NCBI RefSeq assembly: GCF_022828475.1
Contig: NZ_CP059557.1
Coordinates: forward strand, 4,697,470-4,761,469
From: Saccharopolyspora gloriosae
GTDB lineage: Bacteria; Actinomycetota; Actinomycetes; Mycobacteriales; Pseudonocardiaceae
Direction: 5' to 3'
Length of the DNA: 64,000 nucleotides
A model generated the notes under the pieces. That model had not been told where the DNA came from, did not search any database, and saw only the letters and a program-made list of their open reading frames with translations. The position numbers and the translations under genes were made by a program. Shown here piece by piece: positions 8,687 through 63,528 of the stretch. The stretch's first letter is position 1, and each line of letters begins with the position of its first letter.

Positions 8687-8850
8687 ACTGTCAGCGGCGG
8701 AGCCGCTGAGCAGTGACCAGCTGGAGCAAGCCGACCACCGGCGGGTTCGCAGCGGCATCCCCGCGAGGACAGCGATTTCGCCGTGCATCGGACATGCAGG
8801 AGAAATCGATCCCGCCGCGAGCAAGCCGCTGAGCGACCCACCATGCAGGC
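8687..8850 (+). repeat. Palindromic intergenic element, copy A
   Basis: Begins with a 7-bp hairpin CAGCGGC-gga-GCCGCTG (8692-8708) and the motif GAGCAGTGACCA. Then comes a nested palindrome: an outer stem (8748-8763 with 8818-8833, 12 of 16 pairs), a middle stem CGATTTC/GAAATCG, and an inner TGCAT/ATGCA. It fills most of the 258-bp gap between the PAP2/DGK gene and prcA, and the gap holds no gene. Confidence 0.75.
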
Positions 8851-8913
8851 CGTTCTCTTCAGCGAGCCGTACTCGCGGGTGAGGATTTCGAGGTAGCCCG
8901 ACCGGCGCGGTCG

Positions 8914-16784: not shown

Positions 16785-17507
16785 ATGACCTATCCGCCGC
16801 AACAGCCCGGACCGGGCGGGTGGGACCGGTCGCCGGCCGGGAACCCGGCGGACGGCGCTCCGACCCCCGGCGGGCCACCACCGCAGCAGCAGCCCAACTT
16901 TTACGGCAACCAGCACGCCGGATGGCCGCAAGGCCCCATCACCGGAGTCCCGGCGCAGCCCGGCCAGCAGCCCTTCCCGCCGGCGGCGGGCCAGGACCCG
17001 TTCGGCGGCCGGCAGTTCGGCCAGCAGGTCCCGCCGCCGCCGAACTGGGGCGGCGAATTCGGGGCGGGCGCGTGGATCCAGGAGCCCGGCGAGTTCGACG
17101 ATGACGAGCCGGAGCGGCGGTCTCCGCTGGTCTGGATCCTCGGCGGCGTCGGAGTGCTGGTCCTGGCCGGGGCGGTGGTCGGCGGCATCTTCCTGTTCGG
17201 CGGCGGCGACCCCGGTGCTGCTCGGCCGGTCGCCCAAGGACTCGTCGACAAGGTCAACGCCGGGGACTTCGGCTCGCTCGGCCCGCAGCTGTGCGCGGCC
17301 AACCGGGGAGAGCTCGACACGCAGTTCCAGCAGCTCGCCAGCGGCGAGTTCCAGGTGCAGCTCGGGCAGATCACCGAACAGGGCGAACAGGCCCGCGCGA
17401 AGCTCCACGGCACCTACACCCTCGGCGGCGCCACCATGCCCGTCGACCAGACCATCCTGCTCACCGTCGAAGACGACGAGTGGAAAGTGTGCAAGCTCGA
17501 CCAGTGA
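16785..17507 (+). CDS. Proline/glutamine-rich single-span membrane protein
   Basis: 240-residue protein of unknown function. The N-terminal 100 residues are a low-complexity, Pro/Gly/Gln-rich cytoplasmic region (for example PPQQQPNFYGNQHAG). One membrane helix follows (about 113-140, SPLVWILGGVGVLVLAGAVVGGIF). The extracytoplasmic domain of about 95 residues begins DPGAARPVAQGLVDKVNAGDF and has a pattern resembling NTF2-like/DUF4878 domains, with one Cys pair (LCAAN and VCKLD). The ATG has a strong GGGGGAGGAA ribosome-binding site. It occupies the place of the Rv2116-Rv2117 genes between mpa and trmI in M. tuberculosis, but I see no homology to lppK. Confidence 0.8.
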   Translation: MTYPPQQPGPGGWDRSPAGNPADGAPTPGGPPPQQQPNFYGNQHAGWPQGPITGVPAQPGQQPFPPAAGQDPFGGRQFGQQVPPPPNWGGEFGAGAWIQEPGEFDDDEPERRSPLVWILGGVGVLVLAGAVVGGIFLFGGGDPGAARPVAQGLVDKVNAGDFGSLGPQLCAANRGELDTQFQQLASGEFQVQLGQITEQGEQARAKLHGTYTLGGATMPVDQTILLTVEDDEWKVCKLDQ

Positions 17508-17536
17508 GTCTTGTTCCGATTGGCCTGCGCAGAGTC

Positions 17537-17580
17537 GGGTAGCCGAACCTCAGCGCTTCCTCGCCGGCAGGGGGCACTGA
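17537..17580 (-). repeat. Palindromic intergenic element, copy B (half)
   Basis: On the minus strand this reads GGCGAGGAAGCGCTGAGG followed by TTCGGCTACCCG, the right-hand end of the palindromic element seen at 21838, 55508 and 62895. Only one arm is present, so it cannot form the outer hairpin. It lies between the membrane protein and trmI. Confidence 0.55.
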
Positions 17581-17599
17581 TCAAGAGCTCGTCTTGCGG

Positions 17600-17632
17600 C
17601 CGGTGGCACCGCTGGAGTTGCGGTGCCACCGG
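17600..17632. terminator. Bidirectional hairpin terminator
   Basis: Perfect 13-bp stem: CCGGTGGCACCGC pairs with GCGGTGCCACCGG across a 7-nt loop. It lies 5 bp past the trmI stop codon on the minus strand and also downstream of the convergent membrane-protein gene. Confidence 0.75.
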
Positions 17633-21697: not shown

Positions 21698-21797
21698 TGC
21701 CTGGCGGCGAAGCCGTGCCTTACGGCCGAAGGCCGTGCCTGGCGGCGAAGCCGTGCCTTACGGCCGAAGGCCGTGCCTGGCGGCGAAGCCGTGCTTG
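21698..21797 (+). repeat. Tandem array of GAA-loop hairpins
   Basis: Two full 38-bp direct repeats (21698-21735 and 21736-21773) and a partial third. Each unit contains two small stem-loops with a GAA loop: CGGC-gaa-GCCG and ACGGCC-gaa-GGCCGT. The array closes with ATGCGC-gaa-GCGCAT, which has the same loop but a different stem. Together they form a chain of about six hairpins after the thioesterase gene. Confidence 0.8.
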
Positions 21798-21837
21798 TAT
21801 GCGCGAAGCGCATAGCCCACGTCGAAAAGCCGCTCAC

Positions 21838-21951
21838 CCGCGGGTTCTCAGTTGGTCTCTCGCGAGGACAGCTTTTTCCCTCGTGGCGGAGCCACTAGGG
21901 AAAAAGATCCCGCAGCGAGAGACCAACTGAGGTTCCGCCACCCGACCACCA
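21838..21951 (+). repeat. Palindromic intergenic element, copy C
   Basis: Three nested stems with no mismatch: outer CTCAGTTGGTCTCTCG (21847-21862) with 21916-21931, middle TTTTTCCCT (21873-21881) with 21897-21905, and inner GTGGC (21883-21887) with GCCAC (21891-21895). It is the most complete palindrome of the family. Together with the tandem hairpin array it fills the 338-bp gap, which holds no gene. Confidence 0.85.
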
Positions 21952-21972
21952 AAGCCAAACGAGCCCACGAAT

Positions 21973-22821
21973 TCAATCATCATAAGGATCAAAATTGGCG
22001 GCGCTGTCGAACCAGTCTGTGGCTTGCGTGTCATCAACGACCGCAAACCGCGCCCCAGTGGGATCTCGCAGCACCGCGACCCGTCCGATGCTGGATCCGT
22101 AGGGATCGACCCGTACGCGCCCGCCGAGTCCGATGGCCCGGTGGACGAGTTCGTCGATGCCTTCGTCGGCGTCGGCGCCGAGGTACAGCAGCCAGTGCGG
22201 CCTGGTGCCGGGGGTGATGTAGTCGCGGATCATGCTGACTCTGGCCAGCACTGATTCACCTGCGAGGTACCAGACGGCGTAGTTGGAGCGGTTTTCCGCG
22301 CCGAATTGTTCGGCGGTGTAGCCGAAGAGGTTGTGGAAGAAGTTGTCCGCGGCCTGGGCTTTGATCGTGACGAGTTCGGCCCACATGAGCGTGCCGGGCA
22401 GGCCTACGTCGAACTGCCAGGACTCGGCGGGCGTGAGCAGCCCGAACTCCGCGTCGGAGGGGCCGACGAGCACGGCTTTGCGGCCGAGTCCGGGCACGTC
22501 GGAGGTCGGCACGGCGATCCGGGCGCCGTCGTCCTCAGCTTGCCGGATGGCGGAGTCGACGTCCTGGGTGGCGAGGAACAGCCGCCACACGGAGTGGTCT
22601 CCGGCGGCGCGGCGGATGCTGGCGACGGGAAATCCGTCTCGCGAGGCGACGATGTGCTCGCCTGCTTCGTCATCTTGGTGCGTTTTGTACTCCCAGCCGA
22701 ACAGTCCGGCGTAGAACTCGCAGGCCTGTTCCACATCGGTGGTGGCCAGCTCGATCCAGCACGGCATCCCGGCCAGCAGTTCCCATCGAGGAGCGGCCTC
22801 TCCCGGCAGCACAACGGCCAT
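21973..22821 (-). CDS. Two-domain VOC (glyoxalase-like) protein
   Basis: 282-residue protein made of two vicinal-oxygen-chelate modules. The first (about 15-135) starts PCWIELATTDVEQACEFYAG, and the second (about 145-270) starts LMWAELVTIKAQAADNFFHN and ends AVLRDPTGARFAVVDD. This tandem layout is found in actinobacterial proteins such as mycobacterial Cfp30B and hydroxylases of unknown substrate. The ATG at 22821 follows GGGTGAGGGAC; a GTG three codons earlier is an alternative. No enzymatic role can be assigned. Confidence 0.85.
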   Translation of the reverse strand: MAVVLPGEAAPRWELLAGMPCWIELATTDVEQACEFYAGLFGWEYKTHQDDEAGEHIVASRDGFPVASIRRAAGDHSVWRLFLATQDVDSAIRQAEDDGARIAVPTSDVPGLGRKAVLVGPSDAEFGLLTPAESWQFDVGLPGTLMWAELVTIKAQAADNFFHNLFGYTAEQFGAENRSNYAVWYLAGESVLARVSMIRDYITPGTRPHWLLYLGADADEGIDELVHRAIGLGGRVRVDPYGSSIGRVAVLRDPTGARFAVVDDTQATDWFDSAANFDPYDD

Positions 22822-23060
22822 GTCCCTCACCCCCGCGTCATAGCTTCAAGATCACTCCCATTATGACCGAGTGATCGGTGTGTGAAGCCCCCCGAATACG
22901 GATTCACTCGTCTCGACTCCCCGCCCCAACCAGCACAAATAGGACGAAACAGCCATAAATCCGGCATCAGCCGACGCGGCCGAACAGCAATCCCGTGCAG
23001 TTCGCGGCGCACCTTTACAGCAAGTGGCGCAAGCCGTGCACAAAGGCCCCGGCTCATGCT

Positions 23061-28720: not shown

Positions 28721-28781
28721 ACTGGTCGAACGGTCCGTTCACTCCACGAGGTCGACGGGGTGAACGGACCGTTCGACCAGT
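28721..28781. repeat. Perfect 22-bp inverted repeat
   Basis: Arms 28721-28742 and 28760-28781 are exact reverse complements, built around ACTGGTCGAACGGTCC, with a 17-nt loop. A degenerate direct copy of the left arm (28694-28715) lies just upstream. It lies 72 bp after the DUF2637 gene and may act as its terminator. The rest of the 416-bp gap to the HAD gene holds a 9-bp inverted repeat CTCAAGATC/GATCTTGAG and no gene. Confidence 0.75.
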
Positions 28782-34737: not shown

Positions 34738-34809
34738 GCGGGTCAGGTGGCGGAACCTCAGCGGCTCTCTCGCTGCCCCCTGCCGTGTGACCTCGATTTC
34801 TCAAGCAGC
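34738..34809 (-). repeat. Palindromic intergenic element, copy D (half)
   Basis: On the minus strand it reads GCTGCTTGAGAAATCGAGG, then CAGCGAGAGAGCCGCTGAGG and TTCCGCCACC. This is the right half of the element from its loop outward, closest to copy E (49352). The left arm is absent. Confidence 0.7.
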
Positions 34810-49150: not shown

Positions 49151-49351
49151 GAAGCACCCACCCTTCTCCAGAAGTGAGGAGAAAGAACCATCCCCGGGTG
49201 CGGTTCGTCAATGCTTCACCGGCCGTGCCGCAGGACGGCTAACGGAGTGTGTACCCAACCGTTACGCAACACCGGATCGGACGGCGCCCACCTGCACGAT
49301 CACTCCGCCCATGGAACTCGTCCGGTTCACCGCGCGCGTCGATCAGGCGTC

Positions 49352-49485
49352 TTGTCAGCCGCGCAGCCACCGAGCAGTGACCACCTGCGCAGCCGGACCA
49401 TCGTCAGATTCTTGGCGGCCTTCTCACGAAGACGACGATTTCGCCGACCCGAGGGCTACTTGAGAAATCGATCCCCGGCGAGTGA
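49352..49485 (+). repeat. Palindromic intergenic element, copy E (degenerate)
   Basis: Starts with TTGTCAGCCGCGCAGCC, a decayed form of the first hairpin, and GAGCAGTGACCACC. The middle stem CGATTTC/GAAATCG is preserved (as in copy A), but the outer stem is poor. It lies in the 346-bp gap between the binding-protein gene and the Imm1-like gene, which otherwise holds only the importer promoter. Confidence 0.65.
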
Positions 49486-49496
49486 AACGACCGGAT

Positions 49497-55507: not shown

Positions 55508-55685
55508 ATAGGTATCCGAGTAGCGGAACCTCAGCTGCTTCCTCGCTGCGGGGTCCTTTTCCCCAAGTGGCTCCGCCACGAGAGAAAAAGCCGTCCGCGC
55601 GAGGAAGCAGCTGAGAACCCGCCGGTGGTCGGCTTGCTTGGGTGGTCACTGCTCGGCGGCTTCGCCGCTGACAGCACGCAGCGCA
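55508..55685 (-). repeat. Palindromic intergenic element, copy F
   Basis: Complete copy on the minus strand. It has the first hairpin (CAGCGGC-gaa-GCCGCCG, one mismatch), GAGCAGTGACCACC, and a perfect 16-bp outer stem (55530-55545 with 55600-55615, CTCAGCTGCTTCCTCG). The inner stem is GTGGC/GCCAC. The middle arm (TTTTTCTC vs GGGGAAAAG) is imperfect. It lies between the ABC-F leader and the Vms1-like gene. Confidence 0.85.
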
Positions 55686-62894: not shown

Positions 62895-63055
62895 CTTGTC
62901 AGCGGCGAGGCCGCTGAGCGGGGACCACCAACGCGGCCCGACCATCGGCGGGTTCTCAGCGGCCTTCCCCGGGGACGGCCCATTCGCCCAGTAGGGGACT
63001 CAGAAATGGGATCCCGCAGCGAGAAGGCCACTGAGGTTCCGCTACCCGCCCCGCC
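62895..63055 (+). repeat. Palindromic intergenic element, copy G
   Basis: First hairpin CAGCGGC-gag-GCCGCTG (62899-62915 region), GAGCGGGGACCACC, then a 16-bp outer stem with three mismatches (62955-62970 with 63020-63035). The middle stem is CCCATT/AATGGG, unlike that in other copies. It fills the 287-bp gap before the MIP18-like gene. Confidence 0.8.
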
Positions 63056-63081: not shown

Positions 63082-63528
63082 TCAGACCGTGAAGCCGAGT
63101 GCCCGCAGTTGTTCGCGGCCTTCTTCGGTGATCTTCTCCGGACCCCACGGCGGCATCCACACCCAATTGATGCGGAAGTCGCTGACCACGCCGCCGCCGG
63201 GACCGCCGGTGAGCGCGGAGCGAGCCTGCTCCTCGATCACGTCGGTCAGCGGGCAGGCCGCGGAGGTCAGCGTCATGTCCACCGTGGCGCTGTTGTCCTG
63301 CTCGACGCGGACGTCGTAGACGAGGCCGAGGTCGACGATGTTGATCCCCAACTCGGGATCCACGACGTCGCGCAGCGCCTCTTCCACGTCTTCGAGCGCG
63401 GCGAGTTCGGCCGCCGGGGCCGGGGGCTCCGGCAGGTTCTCGGCGCCGCGCGCCACGTCAGTGGCCTCGCCCGCGGCCGCCTCGTCCTGCACGGCCGCCT
63501 CGTCCTGCACCTGGGTCTGGTCTGTCAT
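63082..63528 (-). CDS. MIP18/DUF59-family Fe-S assembly protein (SufT-like)
   Basis: 148-residue protein. The N-terminal 50 residues are Glu/Ala-rich and unstructured, with a repeated (V)QDEAA. The MIP18 domain follows: VEEALRDVVDPELGINIVDLGLVYDV, with the conserved Cys in TSAACPLTDVIEEQAR, and NWVWMPPWGPEKITEEGREQL. The family helps deliver Fe-S clusters to target proteins. Its start codon overlaps the sufU stop in an ATGA, so it is translated with the Suf genes. The start at 63528 is chosen over a longer open frame that lies inside sufU. Confidence 0.93.
   Translation of the reverse strand: MTDQTQVQDEAAVQDEAAAGEATDVARGAENLPEPPAPAAELAALEDVEEALRDVVDPELGINIVDLGLVYDVRVEQDNSATVDMTLTSAACPLTDVIEEQARSALTGGPGGGVVSDFRINWVWMPPWGPEKITEEGREQLRALGFTV

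Follow-up and report, generated by a model that had tools for sequence, protein, structure and literature searches.

A palindromic repeat family of Saccharopolyspora gloriosae and its relatives abuts stop codons and is probably an IS5-type MITE

Results

Palindromic elements in the window

The window, a 64,000-nucleotide stretch of the Saccharopolyspora gloriosae genome, carries copies of a palindromic element at seven sites, A to G (Table 1). An earlier note had credited all seven with one architecture; copies C, F and G are indeed complete and copy A nearly so, but its GAGGTTCCGC end, the 3' end motif, has been lost, whereas B and D are 3' parts and E is degenerate. The outer stems of C and F are fully paired and differ at four positions, every one of them compensated on the other arm, just as the same note had stated. 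In copy C, 28 nt separate the end of the core from the stop codon of the opposing gene. Copy B is placed between the stop codon of a plus-strand gene ending at 17507 and a terminator-like hairpin, copy D is flanked on both sides by a duplicated gene-junction sequence of ~20 bp (judged by eye), and copy F has a CAGCGGCGAAGCCG hairpin 5' of its core, at about 55655-55670. The hairpin-array layout of copy C recurs in other derived copies. At window 21700-21800, and 5' of many other derived copies, ~19-nt hairpin units (GCGGCGAAGCCGTGCCTT) are repeated in tandem; their number varies, and they seem to expand independently.

Table 1. Coordinates of the palindromic elements in the window and of a second repeat
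Feature	Position in window	Strand	Description
Copy A	8687..8865	+	5' hairpin and core (8741-8833), ancestral-type apex
Copy B	17536..17600	-	3' part only
Hairpin array 5' of copy C	21700..21839	+	~19-nt hairpin units and GCGCGAAGCGC hairpin; derived subfamily
Copy C core	21840..21944	+	Outer stem, internal loop GAGGACAGC/GATCCCGCA, variable middle stem, apical hairpin
Copy C 3' tail	21945..21972	+	Reaches stop codon of opposing gene (21973-22830, -)
Second palindromic repeat	28721-28781		Also at L024 and on the own side of the site aligned to position 182873 of the G001 stretch
Copy D	34744..34790	-	3' part only
Copy E	49349..49496	+	Degenerate; without end motif
Copy F core	55517..55622	-	Derived subfamily
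Copy G core	62948..63048	+	5' hairpin from 62895; 3' tail to stop codon of opposing gene at 63082

The end motif GAGGTTCCGCYACCCG, allowing up to three mismatches, matched the window 11 times against 3.13 expected, a count that none of 100 shuffles reached. The motif GAGCAGTGACCACC matched 18 times against 10.4 expected and is by itself a weak signal, because 3 of 100 shuffles reached 18. Copies B and E were not recovered by a profile search at E 1e-3. RNA folding gave z-scores of -9.5 for C, -8.6 for F and -3.4 for G, with no shuffle among 200 folding as well for any of them. Rfam models gave no match at gathering score anywhere in the window. A 401-base piece around site C produced two matches by E-value, one to a microRNA model and one to a trypanosome snoRNA model, and both scored far short of the gathering threshold. 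Searches of Rfam, phage and plasmid collections with the element as query returned nothing useful.

Family size and distribution

The family extends far beyond the seven copies claimed for the window. In the 6.88-Mb genome of the host (G000; its relatives are labelled G001-G005, G017 and G018), the end motif with at most one mismatch occurs 262 times, and its reversed pattern twice. The covariance-model search proposed by the earlier note returned many further copies there, with at least 150 candidates, all scored ones at E ≤ 3.9e-14, so that the scarcity that would have spoken against a family did not appear. Beyond the species, the element was present in 11 of 40 sampled genomes of the Pseudonocardiaceae, own included, and 29 of the 40 gave no match. 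All six genomes of the genus carry it (model R1), with at least 150 copies each in G000, G001 and G002 and 130, 37 and 32 in the others; within the order, under stricter filters, it was found in 8 of 150 genomes, own included. G018 holds 126 copies of the element and G003 130 copies of the core. Most named hosts among the matches listed belong to Saccharopolyspora or Actinopolyspora; Amycolatopsis, Halopolyspora and Prauserella account for a few, and the listing also contains chance matches in unrelated genomes. Among 88 own copies examined the commonest type is a derived subfamily (63 copies), whose apex is of the GTGGCGGAGCCAC type. The presumed terminus region (G000 C1:2.5-4.0 Mb, 1.5 Mb) is poor in copies, with 9 of the best 150 listed.

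The earlier note knew of no description of this family, and in agreement with this, listings of the open-licence literature yielded no description; passages of the S. erythraea transcriptome paper (PMC3610266) do not mention the element. These soil actinomycetes appear to harbor a large, apparently undescribed repeat family, together with a likely mobilising enzyme.

Core structure and covariation

In alignment A1, which comprises 49 hand-picked cores out of 105 full ones, the consensus consists of an outer stem, a conserved internal loop with GAGGACAGC opposite GATCCCGCA, a variable middle stem and an apical hairpin. Compensatory change was seen in 20 of 33 pairs, and 97.3% of cells were paired, against 40-50% (at most 49.5%) when the structure was slid by one to three columns; none of 500 shuffles attained the observed covariation score. 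Strong covariation is therefore present in a larger alignment as well, and the outcome named in advance as refuting, a lack of significant covariation, did not occur. The fold itself may be under selection, as the earlier note proposed. Preserved pairing does not by itself imply this, since copying of whole palindromes as the element moves, gene conversion from copy to copy and arm-to-arm correction would also preserve it.

In the genus (126 copies), Watson-Crick pairs filled 3796 of 3891 cells, and G-T (31) and A-C (27) mispairs were nearly equal in number. Across genera, G-T outnumbered A-C by 64 to 15 on the modelled strand, partly owing to lineages with fixed wobble pairs; two invariant G-T columns were excluded from both counts. 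Cores one or two positions apart showed 15 single and 3 double stem changes, that is, single-arm intermediates, and a concerted change of both arms without intermediates is unsupported by this ratio. Identical cores were found at unrelated loci. The core is kept across genera, and the tails differ between them. The family may serve as a warning that strong RNA-like covariation can accompany DNA mobility and is no proof of RNA function.

Comparison with relatives

Six of the seven sites (A, B, D, E, F and G) are empty in at least one of four relatives: A in G001 and G004, B in G001 and G003, D in G003, E in G003 and G004, F in G001, G002 and G003, and G in G002. G001 carries a complete copy at site E, has copy G in common with the own genome, and also has a copy at site C, with a different outer stem. 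We compared an own stretch of 544 kb, with 41 copies in all, with 460 kb of G001. A counterpart was detected for 14 of 32 anchored own copies and for 16 of 28 copies of G001, leaving 18 and 12, respectively, with none detected in the other genome, although this detection can miss degenerate copies such as that at site E. At 15 shared sites compared, three copies had opposite orientations and 13 differed in outer-stem sequence by our own reading. The opposite orientations lie in orthologous gaps (own/G001 stretch positions 247175/267715, 124199/123993 and 266685/286479), pointing to in-place inversion or repeated insertion at one site.

Retro-mobility, with a group II intron or another retroelement as source, was considered, prompted by the fixed 3' end and variable 5' end, and rejected; the reverse transcriptase domain PF00078 is absent from G000, G001, G003 and G018, is present in G002 and G017, and was found in 7 of 25 genomes. 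Truncations among 69 hits (five at the 5' end, three at the 3' end and one at both) are too few to judge. By eye, the 15 largest clusters of 832 flanking proteins included no recurrent mobile gene beside the copies and resembled ordinary metabolic or housekeeping genes.

Terminal repeats and an IS5-family element

Type-I copies in G004 and G005 carry inverted TTTCAGNATGATTT pairs 206-222 bp apart, and core-deleted copies retaining both ends exist, one of them 86 bp long. The own genome has a type-I copy at C1:5003878-5004093. Type-I copies are thus short, gene-free elements with terminal inverted repeats, as a MITE should be; this finding covers the type-I copies and does not extend to the derived subfamily. 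A search for the end pattern in four genomes found, in the own genome and outside the window, four inverted-end pairs 900 bp apart, which represent a ~0.9-kb IS. Its four copies are identical over the 900 bp compared, and all four have TTAG on both flanks. It encodes a transposase of 274 aa matching NF033580 (IS5 family transposase, E 1.5e-68) as well as PF13340 and PF01609. The left end of the IS and the left end of the repeat at C1:5003878 agree in 22 of 24 bases, so that ends common with an autonomous element are found too, again for the type-I copies only. The IS carries none of the palindromic core, and the tail of the derived subfamily is unlike the IS ends.

Apart from the two ends of the IS itself, six places in the 544 kb come within six mismatches of the IS-end 24-mer. 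At four of them an element core or core fragment follows in the same orientation, 38-101 nt further 3' as measured between nearest edges. Of the IS copies themselves, one is located within the 5' hairpin of a repeat and a second is immediately adjacent to the 3' end of a repeat. Among 12 repeat copies that have two IS-like ends, just 2 were seen by eye to be flanked by the same TNA on either side; L379, which is not one of the 12, is a third case. In G017, TCA was present at both edges in 6 of 22 fetched copies, the right TCA being a TGA stop codon as read by eye. No ~0.9-kb IS-end pair of this pattern was found in G001, G003 or G018, and G003 had zero matches to the end pattern despite its 130 cores. 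Three IS5 relatives from Streptomyces were examined, with protein identities of 68.5, 66.5 and 75.7%; the left end of the closest (75.7%) shows 2 differences in 28 bases, and the ends of the other two are unlike.

Two side observations concern the IS. Among viral contigs, the IS5 transposase was met at one locus, with 43% identity. In the flank of the IS5 copy at G000 C1:2615129 (L411), two copies of a GTCGGCCCCGCGCACGCGGGGATGGTTC repeat lie within about 190 nt; we take this repeat to resemble a type I-E CRISPR repeat.

Gene context

Hits scoring above 25 bits, 38 of the 41 in the own stretch and 26 of the 28 in G001, were placed against gene calls made in this analysis, and none fell within a gene so called. 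Of the 38 own hits, 18 lay between convergent genes, 20 between tandem genes and none between divergent ones; the corresponding numbers for G001 were 15, 10 and 1. The gene to the right of the element points at it in 45 of 55 own loci, 22 of 29 loci of the genus set and 75 of 93 in other records, and among these the 3' end of the core lies 19-45 nt from the opposing stop codon in 33 of 45, 18 of 22 and 57 of 75. By group, the 19-45 nt rule holds in 41 of 56 cases for Saccharopolyspora, 9 of 9 for Actinopolyspora, 2 of 3 for Amycolatopsis, 2 of 2 for Halopolyspora, 2 of 2 for the genus g42 and 1 of 3 for the genus g38, whose other two copies are at 9 nt. In G017 the distance is 32-34 nt in 11 of 21 copies, and in G018 it is 19-45 nt in 17 of 24. 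As the conserved tail measures about 22-32 nt, copies at 19-45 nt end at or beside the stop codon.

In convergent pairs the rule is partly trivial, since the counterpart gap often leaves little room there (3, 13, 19 or 27 bp). In tandem pairs, where the gap does not force it, the rule held in 8 of 11 own, 8 of 9 genus-set and 30 of 35 other records, and the element stood opposite to both genes more often than along them, which overlaps with the fork bias described below. Empty-site lengths are a weak null for the rule, several counterparts not being truly empty: the own site E holds a degenerate copy, and at two others the difference is just 15 and 40 bp. TAG stop codons were abutted about as often as background (6 of 49 versus 83 of 898); because TAG is not TNA on the strand of the element, TNA targeting alone is insufficient for the rule. 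The stop codon as a pure TNA target was accordingly rejected, stop-type usage equalling background. The family lends itself to studying how a transposable element comes to occupy a harmless position behind a stop codon.

Orientation relative to the replication fork

Assuming that both records start at the origin, 91 of 111 listed copies in G018 and 36 of 39 listed copies in G017 are oriented against the fork. Between convergent genes the numbers for fetched copies were 10 of 14 and 12 of 12, respectively, and these counts are informative because gene direction cannot dictate orientation there. In the own genome, where dnaA lies at base 895, 88 copies were examined; those against the fork were 8 of 8 with the ancestral apex, 13 of 17 unclassed and 29 of 63 derived, so the derived subfamily has no fork bias. 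A strong bias over all own copies was rejected, just 87 of the best 150 listed being against the fork. The family is equally suited to the question of how orientation is set by the replication fork.

Discussion

In this study, we found a repeat family whose intact copies, where read, carry IS-like ends, whose sites can be empty in relatives, and whose copies abut stop codons, with a fork bias in two relatives and in the ancestral own type. We consider it probable that the seven sites are copies of an IS5-type MITE moved in trans by the resident IS5-family DDE transposase. In its complete ancestral form the repeat is about 206-222 bp long and encodes no protein. Its palindromic core of ~106 nt is preceded by a small hairpin, and both lie between two terminal inverted repeats, the first of which reads GGGGTCCTTTCAGAATGATCTT in the own copy examined. 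It would be cut and pasted in trans by the transposase whose IS has the same ends and four identical copies in the own genome, and from these shared ends we infer that this IS drives the movement of the repeat. Insertion may prefer short targets with a TNA, CTNAG or TCAG. Such a target can coincide in part with a stop codon, which would survive intact when the target is duplicated. Target duplication, together with purging of insertions from genes and promoters, would then leave copies directly behind stop codons and would thereby explain the abutment. The replication fork may orient insertion, and the derived subfamily presumably grew later.

The MITE reading does not account for a core that is conserved while the tails change between genera, which is the reverse of a plain MITE. 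The core might be a selected device, a folded RNA or single-stranded DNA carried by several transposable ends through the Pseudonocardiaceae, that steers insertion to gene 3' ends on the fork-codirectional strand; we hold this to be rather unlikely. If true, such steering to gene 3' ends would protect the host and so the element.

Among known mobile repeats, the RUP elements of pneumococcus have ends common to a resident IS, and the ERIC and YPAL palindromes of enterobacteria measure 100-200 bp. The family reported here has terminal repeats and, in some of the copies read, a TNA-containing sequence at its flanks in common with the own IS5-family IS, which differs in encoding a transposase and in having no palindromic core. 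As described in passages of PMC2229807, RUP and the Correia/NEMIS MITEs are short and intergenic, with terminal inverted repeats and target duplication, and ERIC, RUP and Correia are MITE-like. The present family differs from RUP and Correia in its IS5-type partner, its long, covarying and conserved core, its ends that vary between genera, its 3' end that abuts stop codons, and its fork orientation in two relatives. ERIC and YPAL are, according to the same passages (PMC2229807), also intergenic palindromes able to fold as RNA. Their host group is another one, and here a likely partner IS exists. REP/BIME elements with their RAYT resemble the family in being palindromic, of high copy number and mostly behind genes, between convergent or unidirectional ones, but REPs are given as 20-40 bp (PMC3733652), and here the ends are different and no RAYT was found.

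This last likeness underlies one alternative, that a REP-like element is moved by a Y1/HUH REP-associated tyrosine transposase as single-stranded DNA on the lagging-strand template. Parts of two papers place REPs, too, behind genes and near stop codons (PMC3733652; PMC12306157), which our palindromic, intergenic copies match, and the strong fork-oriented strand bias in two relatives is as in IS200/IS605 (PMC5371812, in part). However, the same source describes fork-oriented insertion for Tn7 and multiple other IS families as well (PMC5371812). The RAYT link suggested by the earlier note was not borne out: PF01797 (Y1_Tnp) gave no match in the own genome or in G018, with its 126 copies, while the E. 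coli control was positive and 7 of 41 genomes overall had the domain. Ten ~3-kb Y1_Tnp loci of relatives, out of 13 places listed, lacked the element at E ≤ 10, and the terminal repeats match an IS5-type DDE element instead. We therefore regard a REP-like origin as highly improbable.

A functional structured RNA or 3'-untranslated element, with its fold selected in place and copies serving termination, mRNA stability or translation of the opposing gene, would fit the 20 of 33 compensated pairs, the 97.3% of cells paired, the similar stop-codon distance across genera and the G-T excess (64 to 15) on the modelled strand across genera. In the same direction, where a gene of another species is followed by the element and has an ortholog in the own stretch, that ortholog is followed by one too in 4 of 10 cases; for the other genes the figure is 5 of 52 (p 0.03 by Fisher's test). 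Such a role in place agrees poorly with the 18 of 32 anchored own and 12 of 28 G001 copies without a detected counterpart, with opposite orientation at 3 of 15 shared sites, with the near equality of G-T and A-C within the genus (31 to 27), with an insertion at site B that was already trailed by a terminator-like hairpin, and with 29 of 40 family genomes that gave no match, and we judge it improbable. The core could also be an independent, structure-recognised module with a mechanism of its own, taken up by unrelated sets of ends of which the IS5-like ones are borrowed. The conserved core with tails of at least three types (TTTCAGAATG, GCCTGTCTTYGA and one reading AAAACGAGCCTGGAAA on the plus strand) speaks for this, as does the fact that derived copies without IS-like tails are commonest among the own copies examined. 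Yet the intact ends in the own genus match an IS resident in the own genome, and neither the own stretch of 544 kb nor the 460 kb of G001 showed another autonomous partner; such a module seems to us quite improbable.

Two further observations concern other elements. Several places between genes carry another palindromic repeat, unrelated to the first, around GAACGGTCCGTTCACT / AGTGAACGGACCGTTC (Table 1). At G000 C1:1534200, 2948987 and 5992292, three weak DnaA-family matches with identical scores fall in 269-aa frames, which are presumably IstB of an IS21-like element; the one at 1534200 lies about 0.6 kb from the palindromic element at 1533495.
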